DNA of 64,000 nucleotides from Chitinophagales bacterium (lineage in GTDB: Bacteria; Bacteroidota; Bacteroidia; Chitinophagales; CAIOSU01): positions 62,001 through 126,000 of the forward strand of contig JBBDNB010000018.1 in the NCBI GenBank assembly GCA_040877935.1, read 5' to 3'. The notes under the pieces are model-generated. The model was not told where the DNA came from. It worked only from the letters and a program-made list of their open reading frames with translations, and ran no database searches. Made by a program: the position numbers and the translations under genes. Positions within the stretch are counted from its first letter, which is position 1. Each line of letters opens with the position of its first letter. Of the stretch, positions 29,632 to 46,479 are shown piece after piece.

Positions 29632-29844
29632 ATGGATAATTTTGTTTTTGACACTTTCATTTCAGGAATTAAAGAATTTTCAGAAAATACATATAAAATA
29701 CTAACTAAAAGTGAAGAATATAAAAAAGAAGCACAGCTATATCACTATACATCTCTTGAAGCTTTTCAATCAATGGTACAAAATGAATCGCTAAGAGCTA
29801 CTATTAACCTGACGGTATTTGACCGATATTTTCATGCGGCATAG
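29632..29844 (+). pseudogene. DUF2971-type gene cut by the IS element
   Basis: An N-terminal fragment starting MDNFVFDTFISGIKEF at the ATG at 29632. At residues ~39-57 it has LYHYTSLEAFQSMVQNESLR, the opening motif of DUF2971 proteins. Native sequence ends at the TA at 29802-29803. The remaining codons to the stop at 29842 come from the IS left end. DUF2971 proteins are usually more than 200 residues, so most of the gene is missing. Joining the flanks across the element gives about 20 further codons before a stop, without a recognisable DUF2971 continuation. Confidence 0.75.
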
Positions 29845-30922
29845 CTTATTTCCTCGTGCTGAAAATATTTCCTTACCCTGCCGTTATTGTATTTAAGCAT
29901 GTTCATGTGTCCTTCCACGTTGTCCCTGAGCTGATCCTGGCTCCTTGGCGAGGGCTTTTCCGACATGCCGTACTTCAGGTCGCAGTTCAGGTACTCATCG
30001 GGGTTTTTCTCCGGGGAGTAGGATGGCAGGTAGAATACCTCTATGGCCTTGCGGTTTTCCCCGAGCCATTGCTTTACCTTTTTGCTGTGGTGTACCCGCA
30101 GGTTGTCCAGTATGAGGAAGGTCTTTTTCCCCTTGCCCTTGATCAACTGTCGCATGAACTCGATCAGCCTGTCTGAGTGCATGCTGCCCGAGTAGATCAT
30201 GAACTCTACCTTTCCCCGGTTGGTCACGGTGGATATCATGTTTACCGAGAAGCGCTTTGACATACTTTTCTTCACGGGCGTCCTGCCCCGTGGCGCATAG
30301 GAGCGCCCATGCTGGCAGTTGTTCTGCACGCCCGTTTCATCGCCCCAGTGTATCTCGGCATCTTCCTCGGTTGCGCGCTCCCTGATGGCGGGGTATTCCT
30401 CGTCAAGCCATTTGCGCACCTTTTCCGGGCATTGCTCGTAGGCCTTCTTCTTTGGCTTCTGGGGAGTGTACCCCCATGACCTGAGGTAGTCGCCCACCGT
30501 GTTCACGGCAAGGGTTACCCCCAGCTTGAGCTCCACCAGCTCCTTTACGGCCCCCCTTGTCCACAGGGCGTAGGGCAGCTTCAGTTGGTCCGGCATGGTG
30601 TCCAGTATCATCCGCTGGACCTGTTTTTCCTGTTCTTTGTCCAGCAGCTTCATGTTCTCGGACTTTGCGCCACGGGCGTTGTCCCACAGCCCTTTTTCGC
30701 CCCCTGCCCTATAGGCCTTCTTCCAGTCGCTTACGGTATTCTCCCTGACACCGAAGGTTTTCGCCACTTCCTTTTGTTTTTTGCCCTCTTGCAACAACTT
30801 GACCGCGCGCAGCCGGAAGGCGAAACGCTGCTCGCTGCTTAGTTTCCTGAAATCTGTCTTTTCCATCGCCCTAAGATACGGAAAATTTATCTAATTATAT
30901 CGGTATATTACCGTTAAGTTAA
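29804..30922 (-). mobile_element. IS630-family insertion sequence, ~1119 bp
   Basis: Ends were set by comparing both flanks. The left end starts TTAACCTGACGG and the right end, read inward on the other strand, starts TTAACTTAACGG; 21 of the first 26 bases match. TA is present on each side (29802-29803 and 30923-30924), the target duplication of the IS630/Tc1 superfamily. One transposase gene fills the element. Its base composition is visibly richer in G and C than the surrounding genes, which suggests recent arrival from another genome. Confidence 0.85.
29832..30866 (-). CDS. IS630-family transposase
   Basis: A 344-residue transposase. The N-terminal helix-turn-helix (KQKEVAKTFGVRENTVSDWK) should bind the inverted repeats; a second winged-helix part covers residues ~70-150. 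The catalytic DDE triad of the DDE_3 type is visible: Asp in IHWGDETGVQNN, Asp in FLILDNLRVHHSK, and Glu in SPEKNPDEYLN. The gene is uninterrupted and all three acidic residues are present, so it may be active. Codon use is GC-rich compared with its neighbours. Confidence 0.92.
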   Translation of the reverse strand: MEKTDFRKLSSEQRFAFRLRAVKLLQEGKKQKEVAKTFGVRENTVSDWKKAYRAGGEKGLWDNARGAKSENMKLLDKEQEKQVQRMILDTMPDQLKLPYALWTRGAVKELVELKLGVTLAVNTVGDYLRSWGYTPQKPKKKAYEQCPEKVRKWLDEEYPAIRERATEEDAEIHWGDETGVQNNCQHGRSYAPRGRTPVKKSMSKRFSVNMISTVTNRGKVEFMIYSGSMHSDRLIEFMRQLIKGKGKKTFLILDNLRVHHSKKVKQWLGENRKAIEVFYLPSYSPEKNPDEYLNCDLKYGMSEKPSPRSQDQLRDNVEGHMNMLKYNNGRVRKYFQHEEISYAA

Positions 30923-31244: not shown

Positions 31245-32198
31245 ATGAAGGATATCTGTTTTTTTAAAGTTGCTTTATATGCATGTATATTTGTTTCTTT
31301 TTCTTGTCGGGGACAAGAAAAAGAAATTACTTATGTCGATACAGAATCATTGTCTCCCATACAAGCCACAGGATTGCCCATTCGGATTCCAAATGATTCT
31401 ATGTTATTGCCAGAGCTTAGTGACCCGAAACTTCAAAAAAGACTGGAAGATGAAATTAATAAAGTTTCTAAATGGAAAAGCCTGGTAGCCAATAAAAAAA
31501 TGGCTATTGGTATTGTCGATTTGACTGATGTAAACAACATTCGATTTGCTCATATAAACGGCAATCACATGATGTATGCTGCCAGTTTGCCTAAAATTGC
31601 AGTACTCTTAGCTGCTACTGATGCTATTGAAAACGGTGAACTTGAGGAAACTGCAGAAGTAAAAGCAGATATGAAAATAATGATCAGTAAATCTAACAAC
31701 GCAGCAACAACACGTATGATAGACAGAGTGGGCTTTCAAAAAATAGAATCGATTTTAACCTGTGATAGATACTGTTTGTACGATGTAGAATTTGGCGGAG
31801 GTTTATGGGTTGGCAAACGTTACGGAGGTGGCGGAGCGACAAATCGTGAGCCGATCAGAAATTTAAGTCATGCTGCTACAGTCACTCAAGTATGTCGGTT
31901 TTATTATCTGTTGGCTCAGGGGAAATTAGTAAATCAAGAACGATCTGAACAAATGCTTGAGATAATGGAGGATCCTGCTTTGCATCATAAATTTGTAAAT
32001 ACATTAGACATAATTGCACCTGATGCGCGGTTGTTTCGCAAATCCGGTTCATGGAAAACCTATCATTCAGATTCTGTATTGGTTTGGGGAAAAGATCCAA
32101 ACAGAAGATACATTTTAGTAGCACTTGTAGATGACAGTAGTGGAGAACAAATTATAAGAGACTTAGTCATGCCTGTAGAAAGGGCTTTAAAGAAGTGA
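31245..32198 (+). CDS. Lipoprotein-type serine beta-lactamase-fold hydrolase
   Basis: A 317-residue protein starting MKDICFFKVALYACIFVSFS and then Cys21, a lipobox-like site, so it is probably a periplasm-facing lipoprotein. The ATG at 31245 is chosen for this signal; the longer frame from 31191 lacks one. The serine hydrolase motifs are ASLPK (Ser114, Lys117), SKSNNAATT (an S-x-N site) and RKSGSW (KSG). The class A general-base Glu of the omega loop is not evident, which argues against efficient beta-lactamase activity. The fold is that of class A beta-lactamases and penicillin-binding proteins. It precedes a nucleotide-transporter-like gene and shares its motif set with the hydrolase at 35164-36429. 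Confidence 0.8.
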   Translation: MKDICFFKVALYACIFVSFSCRGQEKEITYVDTESLSPIQATGLPIRIPNDSMLLPELSDPKLQKRLEDEINKVSKWKSLVANKKMAIGIVDLTDVNNIRFAHINGNHMMYAASLPKIAVLLAATDAIENGELEETAEVKADMKIMISKSNNAATTRMIDRVGFQKIESILTCDRYCLYDVEFGGGLWVGKRYGGGGATNREPIRNLSHAATVTQVCRFYYLLAQGKLVNQERSEQMLEIMEDPALHHKFVNTLDIIAPDARLFRKSGSWKTYHSDSVLVWGKDPNRRYILVALVDDSSGEQIIRDLVMPVERALKK

Positions 32199-32214
32199 TT
32201 TGTGTCATTTTACA

Positions 32215-32244
32215 GAGGCCTAAGGTTATTAGTGCTTAGGCCTC
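32215..32244 (+). terminator. Strong hairpin after the lipoprotein hydrolase gene
   Basis: GAGGCCTAAG (32215-32224) and CTTAGGCCTC (32235-32244) are exact reverse complements around a 10-base loop, followed by only a short T stretch. It is probably a terminator or an attenuating structure between the two genes. Confidence 0.55.
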
Positions 32245-32288
32245 CTTTAAAGTACAAGAAATAAAATATTTAGAACCCTTAAAACTGC

Positions 32289-35120
32289 ATGGTACAAACC
32301 TTCATAAAGAAATTATTCGACATTAGGGATGGAGAGTTGAAAGTAGCCTTACTGATGCAGGGATATGTTTTTTTTATCATTGCCACTCTACTGATCATCA
32401 AACCTTTAGTTAATTCAATATTTATTTCTGAGTTAGGTGCAGAAAATCTTCCTTTTGGATTTTTATTAGTAGCCATTACTGCTGTCATAAGCTCTTACTT
32501 TTATTCACGATCCACTGAGCAATTTTCGTTATTACATATTATTCGATTTACCATTGTTTTTAGTATTGTATCCCTAATTATTTTAGGAGCATTATTGCAT
32601 TTAGGTCTCATCAAAGGATGGATTTTATACATGTTTTATACAGGTGTCGCTATATATGCAGTTTTGGCTACATCACAATTTTGGGTGTTAGCAAATCTCG
32701 CTTTTAATGTAAGAGAAGCCAAGCGGTTATTCGGTTTTATTGGTGCTGGCGCCATTACAGGTGGTATTTTTGGAGGCTATCTCACCACTATTTTAGCACC
32801 CTTTATAGGCAATGAAAATCTTGTATTTGTTGCAGCTTTCTTTTTAGCCCCCTGTTTCCCATTACTCTCTAAGATTTGGAAAATAAAAGTAAGTGCTCTT
32901 AATACTTTTAAAAAGAAAAAAAGAACTGCCACTTCAAATGAAAATCCTTTTAAACTCATTAAAGGCTCAAAGCACCTCACTTATCTTGCAATTATTATTG
33001 GAGTTGGTGTAATTACAGCGAAGTTAGTAGATTACGAATTTAGCTATATCGCAGCACAACACTACACAGATAGTGATGAGTTAACTTCTTTCTTTGGGTT
33101 CTGGTTGTCTTCATTTAACGTAGCTTCTTTGTTGCTTCAACTTTTCCTAACCCGAAGAATTGTTGGTGTTTGGGGTGTTGGCTTTTCATTAATATTATTA
33201 CCCGTTTTGATATTTTTAGGGGGCTTGTTATTTTTAGTCTTTCCGGAACTTTGGGTAGTCATACTCCTCAAAGCCACAGATGCTAGTTTAAAACAATCTG
33301 TAAATAAATCTGCCATTGAATTGATTGCATTGCCATTGCCTTTACAACTTAAAAAGAAAACAAAATCTTTTATTGATGTTGTAGTTGATAGTATTGCAAC
33401 GGGAATTGCAGGTTGTATTCTTATCTTTTTAATAAAAGGCCTGGATGTGCCCCCTTCATACATCATGGTGCTTATTGTAATACTCACCTTCACATGGGCA
33501 TATTTTGTTTTCAAAGTACGTAAAGAATACTTTCTTTCCTTTAGAAAAAATCTTGAAGTTATTGTACCTGTTCCTATAAAAAAGAGAAAAACAGAAACAC
33601 CCAAGGAGTCTTTTATAGAGGGAATGCGGAATGTTTTTGAAAATGGTCAAGATCGAGAAATACTATATATGTTAAGTAAAGCACAGGAGGTAAATGATAA
33701 GCGTTTAGTTGGACCAATTTCTGAACTCTTAAGCCATCCTTCGCATAAAATCAAGGCTGAAGCCTTACGTAATCTATATTTCTTAAATGCAGATAGCATC
33801 TATACGGAAGTGATATCCTTTTTAAACACAAAAGATGATGAACTTGTTATGGCAACGCTAGAGTATTTACTTTTACACTCAAACACAGACGAAAGTATTG
33901 TATTTGATAGCTATTTAGATCATCCTGATGAATATATTTCAGGCGCTGCACTTTTATGTTTAGCCAAAGAATCTCAGGATAATATTGTACTCAAAGAAAA
34001 GTACAACCTATTTGACCGTATTGAAAAAAAGAAATTAGAAATCGCCTTACTGCCAGAAGAACTTCAACTCAAAGAACAAATTGAACTTTTACAAATTATA
34101 GGTGATGCTGACTATAAAAAAGGTTACGATACTATTCTTGATGCTTTAAATAGTAAAGAAAATGATGTATTACAACAACAAGCTATCATAGCTGCTGGAA
34201 ATACGCTCAATGACTTATTTGTTAATCCTTTATTGGAAAAGTTAGTCATTAAAAGCCAAAGGGAAATAGCGATAAAGGCACTTACAAATTATGGGAAAGC
34301 TATGCTTAATGTACTTTTCAAAAAACTTATGGCTGACGAAATTCAGGAGTCTGTCAAGAAGTTTATTCCCAAAACTATGGCTGCTTTTAACACCCAAGCA
34401 GCTGTGGAAATCATTTTTGAAAGCTTTAAGCATGCTGTAGACTTATCCGTTCGTTTGGAGTGTGTGACTCAACTTTGTATTCTAAAAGAAAAAAATAAAA
34501 GTTTAGAATTTAACGAAAGACAAGTGGCCAAGCTTATTCTTGAAGAATGCAAGCTTTATGACAACACAATTAATGCAATGCATACCCAAATCATTGTTCA
34601 TTATTTAAGGCGTAAGCGGCTAAAAATGAATTTGCCAGATGAAGAAATGAAAGCAAGAGAAAGCTTAATGGAATTGCTGGAAAGGAGATTAGAAAATGGA
34701 TTACAACGCATTTTTAAACTGTTGGAATTGCGCTACTCTCAAAAAGATGTGCGCATGGCCTACCAAGGCATTCTTAGTGAAGAGCAAGAAAAGAGAACAA
34801 ATGCTATTGAGTTTTTAGATATTTTGCTTAATCCAGATTTAAAAAATGCGCTTATCCCTATAGTTGAAGCCAGCATACTAGATATTACTTCAGTTGAGGT
34901 AATAGAAGCGATAAGCAAAAACAAAACAACTGAATTTGAATGTTTTCAAAATATCCTCAATGGGAAAGATGGACGTCTAAAATTAGCTGTCCTTTACCTC
35001 ATTAATAAAATGGGAGACCCAAAATATACTAGCCTTGTTGTTCCCTTTCTACATCATAAAGATGAAGGAATAAGAGATTTTGCAGTAAAGGCTATGCAGT
35101 CTATTTCAAAATCAGCTTAA
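32289..35120 (+). CDS. Npt/NTT-type nucleotide transporter-like protein with C-terminal HEAT repeats
   Basis: A 943-residue protein in two parts. Residues 1 to about 410 form about eleven or twelve membrane helices (GYVFFIIATLLIIKPLVNSI, LFGFIGAGAITGGIFGGYL, LKKKTKSFIDVVVDSIATG) in the style of the ATP/ADP antiporter-like (Npt1/Npt2, TlcA) group within the MFS fold. After a basic linker (KKRKTETPKESF), residues ~430-943 are helical HEAT-like repeats (HPSHKIKAEALRNLY, HPDEYISGAALLCLA, HHKDEGIRDFAVKAM). Family members exchange nucleotides or act as sensors; which applies here is unknown. It converges with a pair encoding a beta-lactamase-fold hydrolase and an ATP-dependent phosphotransferase with a signal peptide. 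Confidence 0.75.
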   Translation: MVQTFIKKLFDIRDGELKVALLMQGYVFFIIATLLIIKPLVNSIFISELGAENLPFGFLLVAITAVISSYFYSRSTEQFSLLHIIRFTIVFSIVSLIILGALLHLGLIKGWILYMFYTGVAIYAVLATSQFWVLANLAFNVREAKRLFGFIGAGAITGGIFGGYLTTILAPFIGNENLVFVAAFFLAPCFPLLSKIWKIKVSALNTFKKKKRTATSNENPFKLIKGSKHLTYLAIIIGVGVITAKLVDYEFSYIAAQHYTDSDELTSFFGFWLSSFNVASLLLQLFLTRRIVGVWGVGFSLILLPVLIFLGGLLFLVFPELWVVILLKATDASLKQSVNKSAIELIALPLPLQLKKKTKSFIDVVVDSIATGIAGCILIFLIKGLDVPPSYIMVLIVILTFTWAYFVFKVRKEYFLSFRKNLEVIVPVPIKKRKTETPKESFIEGMRNVFENGQDREILYMLSKAQEVNDKRLVGPISELLSHPSHKIKAEALRNLYFLNADSIYTEVISFLNTKDDELVMATLEYLLLHSNTDESIVFDSYLDHPDEYISGAALLCLAKESQDNIVLKEKYNLFDRIEKKKLEIALLPEELQLKEQIELLQIIGDADYKKGYDTILDALNSKENDVLQQQAIIAAGNTLNDLFVNPLLEKLVIKSQREIAIKALTNYGKAMLNVLFKKLMADEIQESVKKFIPKTMAAFNTQAAVEIIFESFKHAVDLSVRLECVTQLCILKEKNKSLEFNERQVAKLILEECKLYDNTINAMHTQIIVHYLRRKRLKMNLPDEEMKARESLMELLERRLENGLQRIFKLLELRYSQKDVRMAYQGILSEEQEKRTNAIEFLDILLNPDLKNALIPIVEASILDITSVEVIEAISKNKTTEFECFQNILNGKDGRLKLAVLYLINKMGDPKYTSLVVPFLHHKDEGIRDFAVKAMQSISKSA

Positions 35121-35163
35121 AAAAGTGAGGCATCAAACATCTCCTACATATTTGAAATAATAA

Positions 35164-36429
35164 TTACCCCCTAACAGCCTTATCGATCTTACTGGCAAGC
35201 ATTAAGTGATCACTTGCAGAGTTCTTGTTCAATACGTTGGTCATAACACATACCATATATTTTGAACCATCCGTATGTTCTACAATGGCTACTGAATTCA
35301 TATAGTTAAACACATTACCTTTGTATTTACCGCATTCTTCGCCTTTGCTTATATCGCATTTATACAAACTTCCAGATTTAAAATAGACAGCGGCATCCCT
35401 CAATTCAGGTGCTTGTGCATAGCGAATTCTTCGATCGGTCATGTACATTAATCGCTTGATTTCTAAGCTTGATTTTTCATCTACAATATTACCTTGTTCA
35501 AGTTGTAGCATCCATTTCATGAGTCCTAGTGGCGAGCCAATACTCCCACCTTTACTACCCACATAAGGATTTACACCTCTGGTAAAAAAAGTTCCTAAAC
35601 GCCATTCATCTTCTGTAATACCCAATTGTCGTAAAGGATCGTTAACTATGGAAACAGCTAGGTCTGTGATACTATTTTTAGGCCCTTCTTTAAAATAAGC
35701 ATCGGCATCTTCTTGGGTCATCGTTGGGTACTTATCTCCAAAAGCACACATGAGTAAGGCCTCTCGCCACACAACACTCGCTGCACCATTATTGCTGACA
35801 GACAAGGCATGATCTGCCCATTCAAACAAAGAAAATACATCGCTTGCCTGTGCTTGGCGCTTTACCAATTTATTGGTTTCTATATTAAACACCGGAATGG
35901 TATGTTCATCAGTTAGCACCCAATTCCCTCCTTTTACCATTTTGTTTTTTAAGAGTTCAACACGCTTGTTGTAATCATCAGGATAAATTTTAGCTAGCTG
36001 ATCGAATAGTGCAGTAACCACTATTAGCTTACCCACACTTCCTGGCTGGTAACCACGAGTTTCATTTTGTTGTGCATACCTCAAACTATCTGGTTTTGAA
36101 ATATCAAGAACAGTTACAGAGTAGCTTTTATCTAACCTAGGAAATAAAGCGTCTATCTTTTTTTGAAGCAATGCATCTTGAACCAAAATCTCCTTTGGCG
36201 TATTTTGCTTTCGCGAGAGCAAGTTAAGTTTAATATCATTTATGCTTTTGTAGGCTCCTGCTGGTAGTTTAATAGCGGGTAAATCGCCTGAAAGTGACAA
36301 TTCTAAGCCTCTCAAGCGTTTTATACCTGAGTATTGGTAGCCATCAATTGGATAATCCGTATAATTTGCAGGTACAATAAAAGCCATACAGGCAAAAGCC
36401 AAAAGACTTATTTTAAGTGTTTTGATCAT
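35164..36429 (-). CDS. Secreted serine beta-lactamase-fold hydrolase
   Basis: A 421-residue protein with an N-terminal signal (ISLLAFACMAFIVPANY). The serine-acylase motifs are PGSVGK (Ser131, Lys134), SVSNNGA and FKSGSLY, the same S-x-x-K, S-N-N and K-S-G set as the lipoprotein at 31245-32198. Insertions around the motifs make it ~100 residues longer. A Cys pair (KCDISKGEECG) follows the KSG motif. It is expected to act in the envelope on a peptidoglycan-like or other acyl substrate; no class A omega-loop Glu is obvious. It starts 4 bases after the large phosphotransferase gene, so both are one transcript and probably one process. Confidence 0.8.
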   Translation of the reverse strand: MIKTLKISLLAFACMAFIVPANYTDYPIDGYQYSGIKRLRGLELSLSGDLPAIKLPAGAYKSINDIKLNLLSRKQNTPKEILVQDALLQKKIDALFPRLDKSYSVTVLDISKPDSLRYAQQNETRGYQPGSVGKLIVVTALFDQLAKIYPDDYNKRVELLKNKMVKGGNWVLTDEHTIPVFNIETNKLVKRQAQASDVFSLFEWADHALSVSNNGAASVVWREALLMCAFGDKYPTMTQEDADAYFKEGPKNSITDLAVSIVNDPLRQLGITEDEWRLGTFFTRGVNPYVGSKGGSIGSPLGLMKWMLQLEQGNIVDEKSSLEIKRLMYMTDRRIRYAQAPELRDAAVYFKSGSLYKCDISKGEECGKYKGNVFNYMNSVAIVEHTDGSKYMVCVMTNVLNKNSASDHLMLASKIDKAVRG

Positions 36430-36433
36430 GGGG

Positions 36434-39346
36434 CTATAAGGGTTTGCTTAATAAAATTTGTTTTTGTGTATTTACGTCAGGTGTGATTGATTGAAGATAC
36501 TCTGAACCTAAGGCATTTTTATTTTCAACAAAAGGTCTAACCTGAAACAACCATAGCTTATTATCCTTAAACCCAAGCTCTACGTCATAAGCTCCTTTAT
36601 AATCTGAATTTGTTTTTTTGGCTAAAGTTTTTCTGATGGTGCTTGCCAATTCGTTTATTTCTGCAATGTTCTGCGCATTTAAAATGGGGTTTTCAAAGGT
36701 CGTTACTTGTTTTCCTGTGCCACCTGTAACAGGTAGGATTGTATAATAAGCTTCTCTTGCCGGAGATAACAATTTTACTTTTCCTTCTGAAGTAATGTTG
36801 TATGTTTCAGCAAATTGCCCATCTACTGCGCCACCAGCACCACGACTAAAGGCAAGGGTTAAATCATTTTCATCTCCTGAAGAAATACCTTTTGTAACCA
36901 AAACTCCGGAGTAATCTACATCTACCGAAGGAATGACCAGGATCGAGGGAAATACATTCTCTGGATTTAATAAATATTTTTGTCTCCACTTAAAGCTGCG
37001 TTCTGTATAAGGTGATGCCCATACATCTTTAATGCCTTGTATTATTTTCTGCTTTTCTACAGCATTAAAAATAGTTAAGTTAAGGCCTGCACCTGAAAAA
37101 TCCTTCAAGTCTTCCATGTTAGTGTCACTCCTTAAAAACACGGGGACACTGCCTATAGGTTTTTCAAAAATAGTTTGAAATGATGATGAAATTTCAGCTA
37201 AAAACTCAGACTTTAAGGGCATTATTTTTATCGCAGCCCTTAAAATTTCCAATTGTCTTAATTGAAAATTCTCTACCTCAACTTTAGAAATTCCTTGTTC
37301 TCTTTTGGCATCGGCTTCTGTAAACATTGCGTTTAAAAACTCCCAGTAACTTTTGCCTTGATTTGGCATTTGCTGATCCATGTGTTTTTTGAAAATCCCA
37401 AAAGGAATGACAAACCCTTCTACAACTTGTTCGGGAAACATAGACTTGAGTTGACCAAGATTAGCAGCCTTAGGACCGCACAGTTTGCCGGAGTTACTCG
37501 CATCAACCTCACGTAGATTTAATATAGATGTTTGGCCTAAGCGAATCTCTTCAACGGGTACAGCAATTCTATCTTCCTTACGGACCTTTTTAGTAAACAG
37601 CACTTTTTCTTCTGCCGTCATTTTAGCCGCCTCTTTTAAAATTACTGTCCCTTTATTGGAAACCGCATAAAACACTTTTTCACCGTGAAATGGCATTAAA
37701 TCTTGCAGATTTTCATCGGACAAGGCTGCATTTGGAACACCTAAATTTCTTGCTAACAATTGAACATGAGAAACCAAGTTCCCTTCAGCAACAGTAGCTA
37801 TTCCTGCTATCGGTTTTAAGTCGGCAGGAGCACGTTCAAATATATATATCTTATCACTTGAGACTTCAATATCATCAGGGTTACCGTTTATCACGACCAG
37901 TTCCCCAAATGCATAACCTGGATTTAAACCACGGACGCTACTCTGGTTTTTGAGATTCATGACTTTATTAGACAACGAAGATTCTTGAGCAATGAAATCC
38001 CCTAAATCTCCCACAGTTTTTCCCAATTGTAAGGCAACAGAGGAACGAATGCGGTCATCAATAAAACTATAGGCTTTTGGCTCAAAAGCAGTATATGTGT
38101 TGACCACATCTTGATAATTTGCCTTTACCATTGCCGAGCTCCATTCTACCACACCACGAGCAGTTTCATGCATCTTGATTAAATTGCCCAAACTTATACT
38201 CTTTCCAGCAACGGGTTGAAGTGTAGCCTGTACGCTTTCCCACTCCCAAAGTTCTATCGCTCCTGTTCCAGCTATAGCCATGGCTAAGGCATATACTTTT
38301 TCCTGTTGCTCTCCAAGGGTTACAGGATCCCACTCTGCTGACTTTTTAAAGACAATAGTTTCAAGTTTATTCGCAATATCTAAAAGTTGAAGACGCTGAG
38401 CGCCCCCTTTTTCTTTGGTGATATTTTTTCTTATGTTTAGAAGCATTTTAGCCGTTTCTTTAGTGAATAGCGAAGGATTTACGGTAGTGCTATTGGCTTG
38501 GATAAAATTTTGCAACTTTGTTTTTAAAGCACTTTCACTTTTAAGGGAATTCACCTGTGTTGAAATAGCGGAAAGGCTTGCAGGTTTATGGAACTTCTGC
38601 ATGGTCACTAAGAGCTCCTCTAACTTTTTAAGCAGATCAGAAGTTAGCAATGATGAATTTTTGTTTTTAAATTCCACTACTTTTTCAATATCCAGAGGCT
38701 CAGGATTGCTATGTATTTTTACACGCAGGTCCATAAATTTTGAATATTGATCAGAAATAACTTTAGACTGTGCGCGCATCAATTGAGAGACATCGTCATC
38801 GCCTTTATGAGGGATATCCTTTAGAGATTGCAAAATAAGGTAATAGTTTTTGACCAATACATCATCTTTGGTCAATAGCCATTTGTAAAAATCAACACCC
38901 CATTTTTCTTCATCTTCTACTTGTATGGCACCACGGTAATACTGTCCTTTTCTATTTACCCAACCCTCGTCAATACGGGCTAGATATTTACCAAGTTGGT
39001 ATTGTTTTAAGCGAGAATGGTTATGCACTTCATCCCAAAACTCAGTCTTATCAGTATAAGCCAATATCTGTCCTAAAAATATATGATCGCTTTTTCCAAG
39101 AGCAATGACTTCATCTTTATAAGTGGCGTGTTGGATGCCCCCAATATCTTTGGGACATGGATCTTTAGGTGGACGGATACTACCATCATCACAAAACCAT
39201 TGAATGCTTTTGTATGGCCCACGGATATCATTTTTGTAAGTTTCAATTTGACTTTTTACTTTTTCGTTACTAAGCTGTTGAGCGTTTACTGATAACACCG
39301 CTAGAAAGGCAAAAATCAATAAAAATGGGTGTTTTTGGTATTTCAT
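36434..39346 (-). CDS. Secreted PEP-synthase/glucan-dikinase-like phosphotransferase
   Basis: A 970-residue protein with a clear signal peptide (PFLLIFAFLAVLSVNAQ). Residues ~25-470 are helical and unrecognised. A phosphohistidine swivel domain follows (~475-575) with EGNLVSHVQLLARNLG and His527 as the likely phosphate carrier. The C-terminal part (~620-945) is a PPDK_N-type ATP-binding domain: GPKAANLGQLK, VVEGFVIPFGIF, FLRSDTNMEDLKDFSGAG, a GVLVTKGISSGD segment and YDVELGFKDNKLWLFQVRP. The order histidine domain then ATP domain is that of glucan water dikinases; PEP synthase and PPDK have the reverse order. A signal peptide on an ATP-using enzyme is unusual. The substrate is unknown. A hydrolase gene follows after 4 bases. 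Confidence 0.8.
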   Translation of the reverse strand: MKYQKHPFLLIFAFLAVLSVNAQQLSNEKVKSQIETYKNDIRGPYKSIQWFCDDGSIRPPKDPCPKDIGGIQHATYKDEVIALGKSDHIFLGQILAYTDKTEFWDEVHNHSRLKQYQLGKYLARIDEGWVNRKGQYYRGAIQVEDEEKWGVDFYKWLLTKDDVLVKNYYLILQSLKDIPHKGDDDVSQLMRAQSKVISDQYSKFMDLRVKIHSNPEPLDIEKVVEFKNKNSSLLTSDLLKKLEELLVTMQKFHKPASLSAISTQVNSLKSESALKTKLQNFIQANSTTVNPSLFTKETAKMLLNIRKNITKEKGGAQRLQLLDIANKLETIVFKKSAEWDPVTLGEQQEKVYALAMAIAGTGAIELWEWESVQATLQPVAGKSISLGNLIKMHETARGVVEWSSAMVKANYQDVVNTYTAFEPKAYSFIDDRIRSSVALQLGKTVGDLGDFIAQESSLSNKVMNLKNQSSVRGLNPGYAFGELVVINGNPDDIEVSSDKIYIFERAPADLKPIAGIATVAEGNLVSHVQLLARNLGVPNAALSDENLQDLMPFHGEKVFYAVSNKGTVILKEAAKMTAEEKVLFTKKVRKEDRIAVPVEEIRLGQTSILNLREVDASNSGKLCGPKAANLGQLKSMFPEQVVEGFVIPFGIFKKHMDQQMPNQGKSYWEFLNAMFTEADAKREQGISKVEVENFQLRQLEILRAAIKIMPLKSEFLAEISSSFQTIFEKPIGSVPVFLRSDTNMEDLKDFSGAGLNLTIFNAVEKQKIIQGIKDVWASPYTERSFKWRQKYLLNPENVFPSILVIPSVDVDYSGVLVTKGISSGDENDLTLAFSRGAGGAVDGQFAETYNITSEGKVKLLSPAREAYYTILPVTGGTGKQVTTFENPILNAQNIAEINELASTIRKTLAKKTNSDYKGAYDVELGFKDNKLWLFQVRPFVENKNALGSEYLQSITPDVNTQKQILLSKPL

Positions 39347-40848: not shown

Positions 40849-43800
40849 TTAATCTATCAACATACGCTTCACGGAACTGCCTTGTTCGGTTTGTAATTCC
40901 ACAAAGTAAATGCCCGTAGATAATCCTGAGTTATTGATAAAGAAACTTTGAGTGCCAGAACTAACGCTCAATTGTCTGTGATCAATTACTTCACCCAAAA
41001 TATTGGTAATCTTAAACTGAACTACGCCACTTGTCTCGGCCTGTAGTTCAAGGTTAAAACTTCCCTGGTTGGGATTGGGATAGATTTCCCAATTGCCTTC
41101 ATTAGACAGTTCCCCGATTCCTACATGAATGTATTCTGTACAAGCGGTATCACTGCAATTATATTGGTCAGTAACAACCACACAATACCTGCCTGTTTTA
41201 GGAGTGCTGAAATATTGGTTGTTTGCGCCAAAAATCAAATTCCATGGGCTCTGCTCATACCATTGGTAACTCATTCCGGCAGGTGCAGCCAACATTGTAG
41301 AACCAGAAATGCTGATACTTGCATTTGGTCTTTCCACTACATTTATTGAATCTATGCATTCCGTTGCATTTCCATCGCTGGTGGTTAAAGTCATAATAAC
41401 AGGGTATGTGCCTGGCGTATTATAAGTTATGCTATGCATTCCTGGACCTGTAGCAGAAGAAGGACTGCCACTAGGGAAACTCCAATTTATAAACAACCCG
41501 GTCGTAACTCCAGCATAATTGAACAATGCGACTTCCCCTTCACAAACATTTGGCTTAAAGGTCCATTCGCAAGGCAAAGGATGTTCCTTGCAGTGAATAG
41601 GGAAACAAATGGTAGTATCCTTACAAACCACTTGGTTTTCATCTACCGTAAATGTAAGGCAGAGCTCCTCATCCTGACTGCTTCCAATATAGCTGCCGCT
41701 CACGGTATTCAATCCATTTATTAAAGTGTAAGGATTGTTTACGTTTAAAATTCCGGTATTGCCGCTGCTAATATTCAAACTGCCACATCCATCTATCAAT
41801 AAATCAAAATAATATTTAGGTCCTGCTGAGGTCTGTTCGCACCATATTGTATCACTAATAAATTCAAATCTGCAACAAGAGGTATCACAAGGTGGCAATA
41901 CTACACAGGCGGGTTCTGAAAAACAGCACAGGGTATAATCGCCCAAGGAATCCAATCCTTCCAAATGTGTTCTGAAACAGATCGTGTCACCTGCACTTCC
42001 ATTGTAAATAGTGGTAGAAAGAGAAGTAGAACTATCCCCTGGAAGTATTTCCTCTCCCACTACAGAAGGGCCAAACAATAATCCCAAATGCGGGCTCAAT
42101 ACCCCGAGATTAACCCTGTCAACGGTATCTGAGCTATTATTGATCACATAATATTGCATTTCATAATTTCCATCACTATTGCAGAAAATAGTATCAATGA
42201 TAAATTCAGCGCACAAAGAATCCTGAGGGCCACAATCTTCCAGGTTCAATTCCAATTCCCCTGTAGTATCGGTACAACCAAAACTATTCGTTACTTCCAA
42301 TGCATATAAACCACTCAAATTTGCGGTATAATCTTTAGAGTTGGCTCCAGAAATAGGACTTCCATTCAACATCCACTGATAAGAGGTGCCACCTACTGGA
42401 CCGATAATGGTATATGGCGCGCAAGTATCAAAGCATCCTACATAATAGGAACACAGCTCGGGAAGTGGGTTGATAGTAGCGCAATATGTTGTGCTGCTGC
42501 TACAGCCATTGGTATCCGTTGCAATCAATTGATAACAGCCATTTTCCGTAACCGAAATAGTATCTGAAATTGCACCTGTACTCCACTGTAAATTCACGGA
42601 TGCATCTGGATGATCGCCCACCAATGTAATTGTTTCTCCATAGCAAACCACACTTGCCCCAACAGGCGTAATAGTTGGATCCGCTGGATTGTCCAATGCC
42701 TCCATAATAAAAGGCATAGAAGTATCAGAGCAACCCAAATCATTGTCCGTTACAACCAATTCGTAAGTAAATATTCCGGGAGATGATGGCATAAAGAAAA
42801 TGGAGCTATTGGTACTGCCATTGTTGGTGCCATCGTCCGTAAACCACTGGTAACTCCAATTGCTATTGAAATTTCCATTCAAGGAATAAGCCTGCCCCAA
42901 GCAAATGGTATTGGAACCACTATTATTAATCACGGCTGCAGGTGCAGTATTTACAATTATTCTGATAAAAGTGCTGTAAGTACAACCGCTTCCATCATCC
43001 ATTTCCAAAGTATAAATTCCGGTACTATTTACCGTTATGGAATCATTGGTAGAGCCATTGCTCCACAGATAATCGCAGGAAGCACAGGCAGGAGCTACCA
43101 ATACAACATCTTCGCCTTGGCAAACAATGGTATCGGGATAAGCCGAAATATCACCGTAATTCACAGGGCTTACAATTTCTACCGTATCGCTAATGGAGTC
43201 AACACAGCCGTAAATATCGGATACAAATAAATCTACCGTGTAATCTCCTGCTGCAAAATAGGCAACAGTAGGATTTTGATTGAGGGAAGTAGCACCATTG
43301 CCAAATTCCCAAGACCAATAATTAACTGCTCCAGTAGAAGCATCCGTAAATGGAACGGGCGTTGCCACACAGCTAGGGCTAGGAAAGGTAAAGGCTGCCG
43401 AAGGTGATGGGTCAATTTCTACTGTATCCCTATGTGTTACAATACATGCGGCATTGGAAATGGTCAATTCCACATAATAAGTTCCGGGAGAAGCATAGGT
43501 ATGACAAGGATTTTGAAGTGTTGAAAAATTTCCATCTCCAAAATCCCAATCCCAATTGACAATAGAACTTCCTGCCGTTGTAGCACTTTTATCCGTAAAG
43601 CATACTGCATCTCCATTACAACCCGATTCCAAATCAAAATTAGCATATAAGGGAATTTCTACCAGCATGGTATCAACAACCCTACATGTTTTATTGCCTG
43701 CAATATTTGGAATATCGCCACTCAATTCCACCAAATAAAATCCGGCATCATCGTAGGTATGCGTGGGATTGGTAAGTGTTGAGGAGTTTCCATCTCCAAA

Positions 43801-46479
43801 AAGCCATACGTAATTGCTGGCATTTACCGAACTATTGGTAAAAATCACAGGATTGCAATCCGTGTATGAGAAATCGATAAAACCATCAGGTGTACAGGTA
43901 TCTGGCGTACAATTGTTTTCCACAACACTCAATGGATCCGAAACAGCGGTACAGCCATTGGAAATGTCCGTTACCGTTACATTAAATGTTCCGGGGCTGC
44001 TTGTTGTAATGCATTGGGTTGTAGCGGCATTGGACCACACATAAGTATAATCCGGATTGCCCAAAGCGCAAATATTTACCGTATAAGTGCTTCCCGTGCA
44101 ATATCTCAGCAAATCTGGTGAGCTGATGCTGGCATTGGGCGGTGAAACATAGCTCACATTTATTTGACCAATCCCTGTACATCCATCCGCATCCGTTACA
44201 GTAACTTGATAGAGGCCATCTTCAGAAATATTCGTAGGATTTGAAGTAGAAGTATATCCCGAAGGACCGCTCCAATTATAGCTCACAAATGCACCTCCGC
44301 CAGCGCTCAAATCAGTTGAGCCATTTTCGCACAATGGAGCCAATTGGGAAACAACTGGTTCTGGAATTTTCTTTAAAGTAACATTAACAGAGTCTGCATA
44401 CACCTCGCCACAAACTTCTACGAACAATGCCACCCAAACATTTCCGGGCGCATTATTGCCCCATTCTACGCTTGTACTTGGGCTTCCCTGTGAAAGCACT
44501 GTTCCGTCAATATTTGAGTTTACGGTCCAGGTAAAAATGGCACCAGAAGGATATGTCGTTGGTGTGGAAAAAACATCCGTAGCATTGGCACAAGAAACAC
44601 TTGGTCCATTGATAACAGGTGTCGTTCCGCTTCCGGCAGAAATATTTAAAGTGCTCGTATCAGAATCGCAATACGGAAATTCAGCAGAAGATTCATAGGC
44701 CTGAACCAAATAAGGCCCGATGGCATCCCAGTTGACCGTTACGCAATTGTTGGTAGCAGTAGCCGGAGATCCTCCGGTAATGATCCAATTGACATTGAGA
44801 CTACTTCCTGGCGCACAATATGCAGTGGTAGAATTAGGGCAAATTATGGTATCCCCTACTATTTGCGGATCTGCCGGTGGATCAATTACATCCACTACAT
44901 ATCTGGCAGAATCCTGGCAGGTTTCTGTAGGGTCAACAGGTAGCGCAGTAACTACATAAGTACCCGTATTTCCAACCCAATCGATATTCACAAAATTGCT
45001 TGGGCTACCACTTAAAATTGGTCCGGAAGGTGAAACCGTCCAATTACAACTAATGGAAGTACTAAAACCTGATGAGGCATTGGAACAAGCCGTATTCATT
45101 CCGAAAATCTGGAATTTTGGTCTTAGGTCAATAATGTATTGAGCAGATCCACCGCAATTCAAGAATGAATCATAGTAGCTCACATTCAAGGTATCGGTAC
45201 AAGCAGAGGCAAATTCCGACCAGCAAATTTTGACTTTATTGCAAGAGGTCGTATCCTGCAATTCCCCGCAACCGCCATTTAAACTCCAACTATAAGTTGC
45301 ACCGCTAAAATGAGGCAGGGTATAAAATGCACAATCGCCCGGACAAACTTCCGATGGTCCACTGATTGTCCCTTCATCGGGTACTATTGGCACATTGATA
45401 AAAGTAGTATCCACACAAACTCCTGTGCAACCGGATAAATACAAACCAATGGTGCCCATTTGCCCTGGTCCCCATGCAATATTTACACTTGGCTCACCTT
45501 GTCCTGATACAATATTACCTCCAATGGCAAACCAATTGAAAGTACAGGAAGTATCTGCATTGGCAGTATATTCCATAGTATCGTTGGCGCAAATGGTGGA
45601 TGGGCAAGAAATTTCAGGCCCTGCAACGGAATCCACAGTAATTGTATTTTGAATTGTATCGGTGCAAAAACATTCATTTTCAGCAATTAAGGTAATGGTG
45701 TATATTCCGCCACTGCTGTAATTGTGATTGGGCTCAAAAGCAGTGGAAGTATTCCCATCGCCAAAATCCCAGAAATAGGAAGTGGCACCCGTGGAATTGT
45801 TCTCTAGCCAAACATTGCTGAATTTACATACCGATGCTTGATTGTTAAATGCAGCTACTGGCAAATCAACTTTTTCTATACAAAGCTTGGTGGAATCGGT
45901 ACAGCCAAAAGAATTTGTTTCTACCAAAAACAAAGTGCCGTAATCTGAATTGTCCCAAGTAACGCTCACGCTATTTGTACTGGCTCCACTGATGGAGCTC
46001 TCCCCAATAGCAGACCAAGCATAAGTGCTTCCCGTACTAAGCGACACGCTATATTCCACCGTAGCACCTTTGCACACTTTCTCGCATACAATCAGCTCAT
46101 CATCCGGGAAACCTATGCCCTGTCCCCTACTGGTATCGGGCGGACAAGAAGGATAAGGCTCACTTGCAATTACAGGGCTTGGACTTGGGTTGATATTTAC
46201 ATTGAGCGTATGGAAAATTGGCGGTCCACTGGGGGGAACTACTTCCACCACTATGGTTCCCGTTCCTGCGCCATTCCAGTGGATGTCCACATTATCAGTA
46301 TAGGGCGATCCACTGACAAAACCACCCGTTACGCTCCAAGCGTAAGTAGCTCCTGAAACGATCGGGACAGAATAATTTGCCTGATCGCCAGCGCAAACTG
46401 GGTTATCTCCTGAAACTTGAGGAAAGGCAGATTTTAAAATCAAAAAGGTAAAGACGAGCAGTAGGTGAAGATTTTTCAT
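40849..46479 (-). CDS. Giant PKD/Ig-like repeat surface protein with T9SS type A sorting domain
   Basis: A 1876-residue secreted protein with an N-terminal signal (LHLLLVFTFLILKSAFPQ). It is built of PKD-like and Ig-like modules of ~80-90 residues. PKD cores include YFWDFGDGNTSTAFEPNHNY, YVWLFGDGNSSTLTNPTHTY and WDWDFGDGNFSTLQNPCHTY. Ig-like units repeat GPSxVCPGxxxxY and TYxWSxxGG patterns with paired cysteines. The last ~75 residues (NWEIYPNPNQGSFNLELQ ... TGIYFVELQTEQG) are the type A sorting domain, so the protein should pass the outer membrane by the type IX route and be attached or released. The role is probably adhesion or matrix; no enzyme domain is visible. Cysteine content is high for a Bacteroidota surface protein. 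It is transcribed alone. Confidence 0.88.
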   Translation of the reverse strand: MKNLHLLLVFTFLILKSAFPQVSGDNPVCAGDQANYSVPIVSGATYAWSVTGGFVSGSPYTDNVDIHWNGAGTGTIVVEVVPPSGPPIFHTLNVNINPSPSPVIASEPYPSCPPDTSRGQGIGFPDDELIVCEKVCKGATVEYSVSLSTGSTYAWSAIGESSISGASTNSVSVTWDNSDYGTLFLVETNSFGCTDSTKLCIEKVDLPVAAFNNQASVCKFSNVWLENNSTGATSYFWDFGDGNTSTAFEPNHNYSSGGIYTITLIAENECFCTDTIQNTITVDSVAGPEISCPSTICANDTMEYTANADTSCTFNWFAIGGNIVSGQGEPSVNIAWGPGQMGTIGLYLSGCTGVCVDTTFINVPIVPDEGTISGPSEVCPGDCAFYTLPHFSGATYSWSLNGGCGELQDTTSCNKVKICWSEFASACTDTLNVSYYDSFLNCGGSAQYIIDLRPKFQIFGMNTACSNASSGFSTSISCNWTVSPSGPILSGSPSNFVNIDWVGNTGTYVVTALPVDPTETCQDSARYVVDVIDPPADPQIVGDTIICPNSTTAYCAPGSSLNVNWIITGGSPATATNNCVTVNWDAIGPYLVQAYESSAEFPYCDSDTSTLNISAGSGTTPVINGPSVSCANATDVFSTPTTYPSGAIFTWTVNSNIDGTVLSQGSPSTSVEWGNNAPGNVWVALFVEVCGEVYADSVNVTLKKIPEPVVSQLAPLCENGSTDLSAGGGAFVSYNWSGPSGYTSTSNPTNISEDGLYQVTVTDADGCTGIGQINVSYVSPPNASISSPDLLRYCTGSTYTVNICALGNPDYTYVWSNAATTQCITTSSPGTFNVTVTDISNGCTAVSDPLSVVENNCTPDTCTPDGFIDFSYTDCNPVIFTNSSVNASNYVWLFGDGNSSTLTNPTHTYDDAGFYLVELSGDIPNIAGNKTCRVVDTMLVEIPLYANFDLESGCNGDAVCFTDKSATTAGSSIVNWDWDFGDGNFSTLQNPCHTYASPGTYYVELTISNAACIVTHRDTVEIDPSPSAAFTFPSPSCVATPVPFTDASTGAVNYWSWEFGNGATSLNQNPTVAYFAAGDYTVDLFVSDIYGCVDSISDTVEIVSPVNYGDISAYPDTIVCQGEDVVLVAPACASCDYLWSNGSTNDSITVNSTGIYTLEMDDGSGCTYSTFIRIIVNTAPAAVINNSGSNTICLGQAYSLNGNFNSNWSYQWFTDDGTNNGSTNSSIFFMPSSPGIFTYELVVTDNDLGCSDTSMPFIMEALDNPADPTITPVGASVVCYGETITLVGDHPDASVNLQWSTGAISDTISVTENGCYQLIATDTNGCSSSTTYCATINPLPELCSYYVGCFDTCAPYTIIGPVGGTSYQWMLNGSPISGANSKDYTANLSGLYALEVTNSFGCTDTTGELELNLEDCGPQDSLCAEFIIDTIFCNSDGNYEMQYYVINNSSDTVDRVNLGVLSPHLGLLFGPSVVGEEILPGDSSTSLSTTIYNGSAGDTICFRTHLEGLDSLGDYTLCCFSEPACVVLPPCDTSCCRFEFISDTIWCEQTSAGPKYYFDLLIDGCGSLNISSGNTGILNVNNPYTLINGLNTVSGSYIGSSQDEELCLTFTVDENQVVCKDTTICFPIHCKEHPLPCEWTFKPNVCEGEVALFNYAGVTTGLFINWSFPSGSPSSATGPGMHSITYNTPGTYPVIMTLTTSDGNATECIDSINVVERPNASISISGSTMLAAPAGMSYQWYEQSPWNLIFGANNQYFSTPKTGRYCVVVTDQYNCSDTACTEYIHVGIGELSNEGNWEIYPNPNQGSFNLELQAETSGVVQFKITNILGEVIDHRQLSVSSGTQSFFINNSGLSTGIYFVELQTEQGSSVKRMLID

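Follow-up and report, generated by a model that had tools for sequence, protein, structure and literature searches.

A co-inherited four-gene set of Bacteroidota built around a predicted exported dikinase

The dikinases, a superfamily recognized by a swivel phosphohistidine domain and an ATP-grasp domain with intact catalytic residues, include rifampin phosphotransferase (RPH), the two-component small-molecule dikinases (HpeHI), phosphoenolpyruvate (PEP) synthase, PPDK and the GWD/PWD enzymes. The periplasm, to our knowledge, is normally regarded as being without ATP-driven enzymes. Described here is a set of four genes, A to D, of which D encodes a predicted exported dikinase, in a 64,000-nucleotide stretch of DNA from a Chitinophagales bacterium (GCA_040877935.1, contig JBBDNB010000018.1, positions 62,001 to 126,000; referred to here as the window, in whose numbering all its coordinates are given). 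The set is co-inherited across Bacteroidota, almost certainly forms one functional unit, and is read here, with a probability of roughly 0.5, as a system for ATP-driven phosphotransfer outside the cytoplasm that has acyl-serine enzymes of its own.

In GWD, the phosphohistidine domain is followed by a C-terminal ATP domain. D shares this order, and 13 of 42 D homologues give a weak match to GWD1_pHisD (PF22973); unlike GWD and PWD, it is bacterial, predicted to be exported and devoid of a starch-binding module by Pfam (no carbohydrate-binding family, at E up to 10, is among the matches shown for D and its homologues). With PEP synthase and PPDK it has in common the PPDK_N ATP-grasp and phosphohistidine domains with invariant catalytic residues (K626 and R739 in D), but it is predicted to be exported, has an altered domain order and lacks the PEP/pyruvate-binding domain: Pfam gives no match to one for D, and none is listed among the families shown for the 41 homologues. 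RPH and HpeHI resemble D in their ATP-grasp domain, swivel phosphohistidine domain and separate, mostly helical region at the place of the substrate domain. The helical–His–ATP order of D is a rearrangement of their ATP–RIF–His order (ATP, substrate, His in RPH; PMC4844700), and D further differs from both in its predicted export, its dedicated partner genes and a helical domain that matches nothing by sequence.

Among the partners, B has the architecture of the NTT–HEAT fusion proteins, described as an uncharacterised class (Major et al. 2017, PMC5381601), but stands apart as a subfamily, marked by a distinct set of invariant charged residues and by the constant presence of A, C and D next to it. 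A and C carry the SxxK, SxN and KSG motifs of the class A beta-lactamases and PBP-A, and C their modelled fold, but identity is only ~15%, C has an N-terminal extension and a cysteine loop, and the acidic residue at the putative omega-loop position is D or E rather than strictly Glu. All four proteins are members of known superfamilies, and the expected chemistry is that of a dikinase; what is new, as far as we found, is where it would take place, how the domains are ordered and which genes accompany D. The first-pass annotation of this DNA, made from the sequence alone, knew of no described system with these genes. The open-access papers searched yielded no account of the set either, nor of dikinases that are exported, periplasmic or type IX-secreted, nor of ATP in the periplasm of Bacteroidota.

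The features of the locus are as follows.

31245–32198, plus strand: gene A, serine hydrolase of the class A beta-lactamase-like family with SxxK, SxN and KSG motifs, predicted to be exported (Pfam Beta-lactamase2, PF13354, 8.4e-19)
32289–35120, plus strand: gene B, NTT/TLC-like membrane transporter that ends in a tail of HEAT repeats (TLC ATP/ADP transporter, PF03219, 3.2e-11; HEAT_2, PF13646, 1.7e-12; profile match to 9j3j)
32289–33533, plus strand: transmembrane NTT-like domain of B, residues 1–415, with invariant K38, N42, Q130, K245, D331, K335, K340, K355 and K359
33606–35117, plus strand: HEAT-repeat tail of B, probably cytoplasmic as judged from hydropathy and loop charges (matches to alphaRep/HEAT structures)
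35164–36429, minus strand: gene C, serine hydrolase with a class A beta-lactamase/PBP-A fold by alignment and model, predicted to be exported (PF13354, 1.3e-7)
36434–39346, minus strand: gene D, predicted exported dikinase with signal peptide, helical domain, phosphohistidine swivel domain and ATP-grasp domain
39281–39346, minus strand: signal peptide of D, residues 1–22, predicted cleavage before Q23
37967–39274, minus strand: N-terminal helical domain of D, approximately residues 25–460, with invariant C52 and C64; proposed to bind the acceptor
37592–37939, minus strand: phosphohistidine swivel domain of D, approximately residues 470–585, catalytic His527 at 37766–37768 (PF00391 and structure matches)
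36506–37537, minus strand: ATP-grasp domain of D, approximately residues 604–947, with invariant K626, R739, E745, E923, Q935 and R937 (PPDK_N, PF01326, 2e-26, residues 622–945)

Co-inheritance of the four genes

The four open reading frames (ORFs) form two convergent pairs, A–B on the plus strand and D–C on the minus strand, and their positions and Pfam identities agree with the first-pass annotation. Scanning of GTDB species genomes with D yielded 60 loci, mostly from Flavobacteriaceae, with a few from Saprospiraceae, Prolixibacteraceae and other Bacteroidota. All four genes are found together in 56 of these (56 of the 58 that are untruncated), nearly always in the same convergent order. Two of the four incomplete loci (L028 and L061) are cut by contig ends; in the others, the A–B pair sits on another contig (Allomuricauda nanhaiensis) or B lies ~2 Mb away (Saonia flava).

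The phyletic pattern is equally tight. Ortholog-strength matches of A, B, C and D fall on the same 6 of 150 genomes sampled from the order of the window, and in a phylum-wide sample of 395 the genomes with A, those with C and those with D are an identical 13, a coincidence with a chance of ~1e-48 were the genes independent (a figure that is illustrative only, the genomes being related). An ortholog-strength match to B is found in 14 of 16 genomes that carry A, C and D. Two genomes (G069 and G080) have kept all of the genes although these are dispersed over the genome, and in another (G129) A stands alone on a separate contig with the set still complete. Co-occurrence of the set is far beyond chance. 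The grouping of the four genes as one system, made in the first-pass annotation, is borne out by the linkage in 56 of 58 loci and the identical pattern of A, C and D; linkage, phyletic pattern and retention when scattered together argue against the contrary case it had named, in which the four families would rarely be neighbours. Genes flanking the set recur only inside groups of related genera, so that the set appears self-contained and a role for the flanking genes was rejected.

The predicted exported dikinase

Without exception, H527, K626, R739, E745, E923, Q935 and R937 are conserved in 42 D homologues, in 40 of which the PEP-utilizer phosphohistidine domain (PF00391) is detected; D has both domains of the superfamily with these residues intact. 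Also invariant is the cysteine pair C52 and C64. NCBIfam yields only matches of PEP-synthase and RPH type, at the C-terminal end and far under the curated cut-offs. In the AlphaFold2 model of D (mean predicted local distance difference test score, pLDDT, 86.7), for which structure searches covered mainly residues 508–947, the ATP-grasp domain is similar to that of rifampin phosphotransferase (VIA Z of 30.7 and root-mean-square deviation, r.m.s.d., of 2.9 over 308 residues with 5hv1) and to HpeI (Z of 25.2 with 9goj), and the swivel region to RPH (Z of 9.7 with 5fbu) and Enzyme I (Z of 9.2 with 1zym). The ATP-grasp domain stops ~25 residues short of the C-terminus. Because the domain order differs and the PEP/pyruvate domain is missing, D is not a plain PEP synthase, a case that the first-pass annotation had itself raised.

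Preceding the helical domain is a signal peptide (MKYQKHPFLLIFAFLAVLSVNA, followed by Q) whose Q23 is at least 90% conserved. Scored by a simple heuristic, 55 of 59 D homologues combine a hydrophobic core with an xxA↓Q-type site just behind it, versus 54 of 469 flanking ORFs; the same heuristic assigns signal peptides to A and C. The first-pass annotation had described D as a phosphohistidine protein with an ATP domain and a signal peptide; the recurrent signal peptide makes export very probable, and with the invariant core residues we consider that D is probably both exported and an active dikinase.

Independent support for export comes from weaker D matches in other Bacteroidota. These proteins of 631 to 1393 residues have the same His-then-ATP order and keep equivalents of H527, K626, R739, E745, Q935 and R937. 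Most start with a signal peptide; a type IX secretion tail is clear in three (PF18962, at 8.4e-8 or below), and carboxypeptidase-regulatory-like domains occur in others. None has A, B or C neighbours beside it.

These distant relatives lie at L077–L087 (for example L080:6325-10035, L083:1218-5396 and L085:2746-5256).

The serine hydrolases

The class A motifs that the first-pass annotation read in one member of each pair are intact and invariant: S131xxK134, S212xN214 and K351SG in an alignment of 33 C sequences, and SxxK, SxN and KSG at 114, 150 and 266 (alignment A3 numbering) in 26 homologues of A. The N-terminus of A is a signal peptide or possibly that of a lipoprotein, and C has an invariant cysteine pair (C358/C366). 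The model of C (AlphaFold2, pLDDT 87.6) has the class A beta-lactamase/PBP-A fold and is matched equally closely by class A beta-lactamases and by PBP-A (VIA Z of 24.6–24.8, r.m.s.d. of 2.5 to 2.9). PBP-A is a peptidase-type relative that shares the class A beta-lactamase fold. Between SxN and KSG there is always an acidic residue (E202 in A, E275 in C), a candidate counterpart of the omega-loop Glu166; as it varies between D and E, beta-lactamase activity is not implied.

The NTT–HEAT transporter

B scores 43.1 bits against PF03219, for which the curated cut-off is 21, and a profile of its membrane domain matches the Arabidopsis NTT1 structure 9j3j (E 4.8e-15). Following the NTT domain are the HEAT repeats. 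A strongly positive central loop and an assumed 12 helices suggest, by the positive-inside rule, that the tail is cytoplasmic.

Transport is impaired in K155, E245 and K527 mutants of Arabidopsis NTT1 (PMC3306366), and further papers list E385 together with these residues. On alignment of B with the PDB chain of 9j3j, using an inferred numbering offset of 84 with which all four letters fit the chain, the position of E385 is still acidic (D248), and K155, E245 and K527 are replaced by F58, A121 and T371, the region of K155 being aligned with low confidence. The invariant charged residues of the B family are without counterpart in other NTT–HEAT proteins of the phylum. The cargo of B may be a nucleotide but is probably handled unlike that of NTT1.

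Proposed mechanism and alternatives

The genes are co-inherited in a nearly constant order, and their products show the folds, invariant catalytic residues and signal sequences described above. From this we infer one envelope system, its export, its use of ATP, an acceptor common to its enzymes and the cargo of B, as follows. D would leave the cytoplasm through its signal peptide and become phosphorylated on His527 by the beta-phosphate of ATP, with AMP and Pi as the other products. From there the swivel domain would hand the phosphate to an acceptor held by the N-terminal helical domain, for which we propose this acceptor-binding role, so that dikinase chemistry would take place outside the cytoplasm. 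A and C would be exported acyl-serine enzymes that hydrolyse or transfer acyl, ester or peptide bonds before or after phosphorylation; whether they act on the same acceptor as D is an even call. Our guess is that the acceptor is a cell-wall or glycan-derived compound. B would be an inner-membrane carrier with a cytoplasmic HEAT tail and, as its cargo, an anionic compound resembling a nucleotide. It would either pass ATP or a different nucleotide out to the periplasm for D or bring a product into the cytoplasm.

Several points weigh against reading the set as such an extracytoplasmic phosphotransfer system. ATP is scarce in the periplasm and B lacks three of the four NTT1 exchange residues, which leaves the supply of ATP in doubt. 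Two of the 13 genomes with A, C and D (G320 and G336) have only distant B relatives. Among 144 genomes of the order sample, those with distant D relatives (22) and those with NTT matches (18) show zero overlap (p=0.04), which argues that exported dikinases are not generally NTT-dependent. The signal peptides were scored by heuristic, not by a trained predictor, and co-inheritance is no proof of a common substrate.

These points bear most directly on a specific version of the proposal in the first-pass annotation: ATP would reach the outside by ATP/ADP-type exchange through B, and D would spend it on the phosphorylation of an envelope polymer. B is in the NTT family and travels with D, and D needs ATP and is predicted to be exported; with three of the four NTT1 residues replaced, distant B alone in two genomes and exported dikinase relatives existing without NTT, we consider this version unlikely, and ATP supply by B in general doubtful. 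Of that interpretation, the single functional set is supported and the ATP supply through B is weakened. The transport could instead run inward, A and C processing and D phosphorylating a compound from outside, with leaked or environmental ATP, and B carrying in the product as a trapped phosphoester. Substrate trapping by small-molecule dikinase phosphorylation has been proposed (PMC12167813), and such an import route would suit both the exported dikinases without NTT and the charged residues that set B apart from other NTT–HEAT proteins. The ATP supply would, however, be uncontrolled, and the flanks hold neither a conserved transporter for the unphosphorylated precursor nor SusCD-like genes, which leaves import rather improbable.

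A detoxification role, with A and C as hydrolases and D as phosphotransferase of periplasmic antibiotics and B as an unrelated protein or an efflux pump, would draw on the class A fold of C and on rifampin phosphotransferase being the closest match of the D ATP-grasp domain. It is very improbable given a domain order unlike that of this enzyme, no match to its RIF-binding domain, the D/E mix at the putative omega-loop position and chromosomal co-inheritance across families, with no PLSDB plasmid match to C; a plasmid resistance cassette was rejected on this last ground. Antiphage defence was likewise rejected, PADLOC having given only a weak HEAT match in B. Adjacent genes can be transferred jointly, and the window copy itself looks transferred; that the genes are neighbours by descent only, with separate functions, is nevertheless a very slight prospect in view of the identical pattern in 13 of 395 genomes and of the genomes that keep every gene of the set although these are dispersed.

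More tentatively, and with a good deal less than even likelihood, Bacteroidota may use exported dikinases, some of them even secreted by the type IX route, for ATP-driven phosphoryl transfer beyond the cytoplasm. The four-gene set would be a dedicated version, its NTT–HEAT carrier giving nucleotide and its two acyl-serine enzymes preparing or processing the acceptor. Such a version, if real, would add a new kind of system for energy supply and modification in the envelope. A strictly co-inherited set around a predicted exported dikinase with intact catalytic residues makes the assumption of a periplasm without ATP-driven enzymes testable and gives the uncharacterised NTT–HEAT transporters a physiological context, and the wider exported-dikinase group suggests that the question extends past this locus.

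Origin of the window copy and variation among loci

In a tree of D, built by a quick method that leaves some forks unresolved, the neighbours of the window sequence are those of L002 and L023, and all three share a clade with Allomuricauda nanhaiensis within the part occupied by Flavobacteriaceae. Also grouping among the Flavobacteriaceae is a member of family f25 (G246), a family of an order different from that of the host. No D ortholog was found in the other sampled genomes of the family of the host. Directly upstream of the set is an IS630-type DDE transposase (29832–30866, minus strand), consistent with horizontal acquisition, and the window copy was probably acquired horizontally from Flavobacteriaceae. 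Adjoining the set at 40849–46479 on the minus strand is a very large repeat protein (1876 amino acids) with a type IX secretion-like C-terminal end, which is not conserved with it.

Individual loci depart from the usual arrangement. At L059 (Lacinutrix neustonica, CP113088), frameshifts or stops break D and B, through decay or sequencing error. B is inverted at L076 (G032:C22), where the set is still together. In two Maribacter loci an extra gene of ~510 amino acids lies between D and C (L003:12894-14432 and L030:13009-14538), and L003 has an additional, membrane-anchored protein of 788 amino acids between C and B. A second A-type paralogue adjoins the first at L052:17051-17977 and L054:5844-6203.

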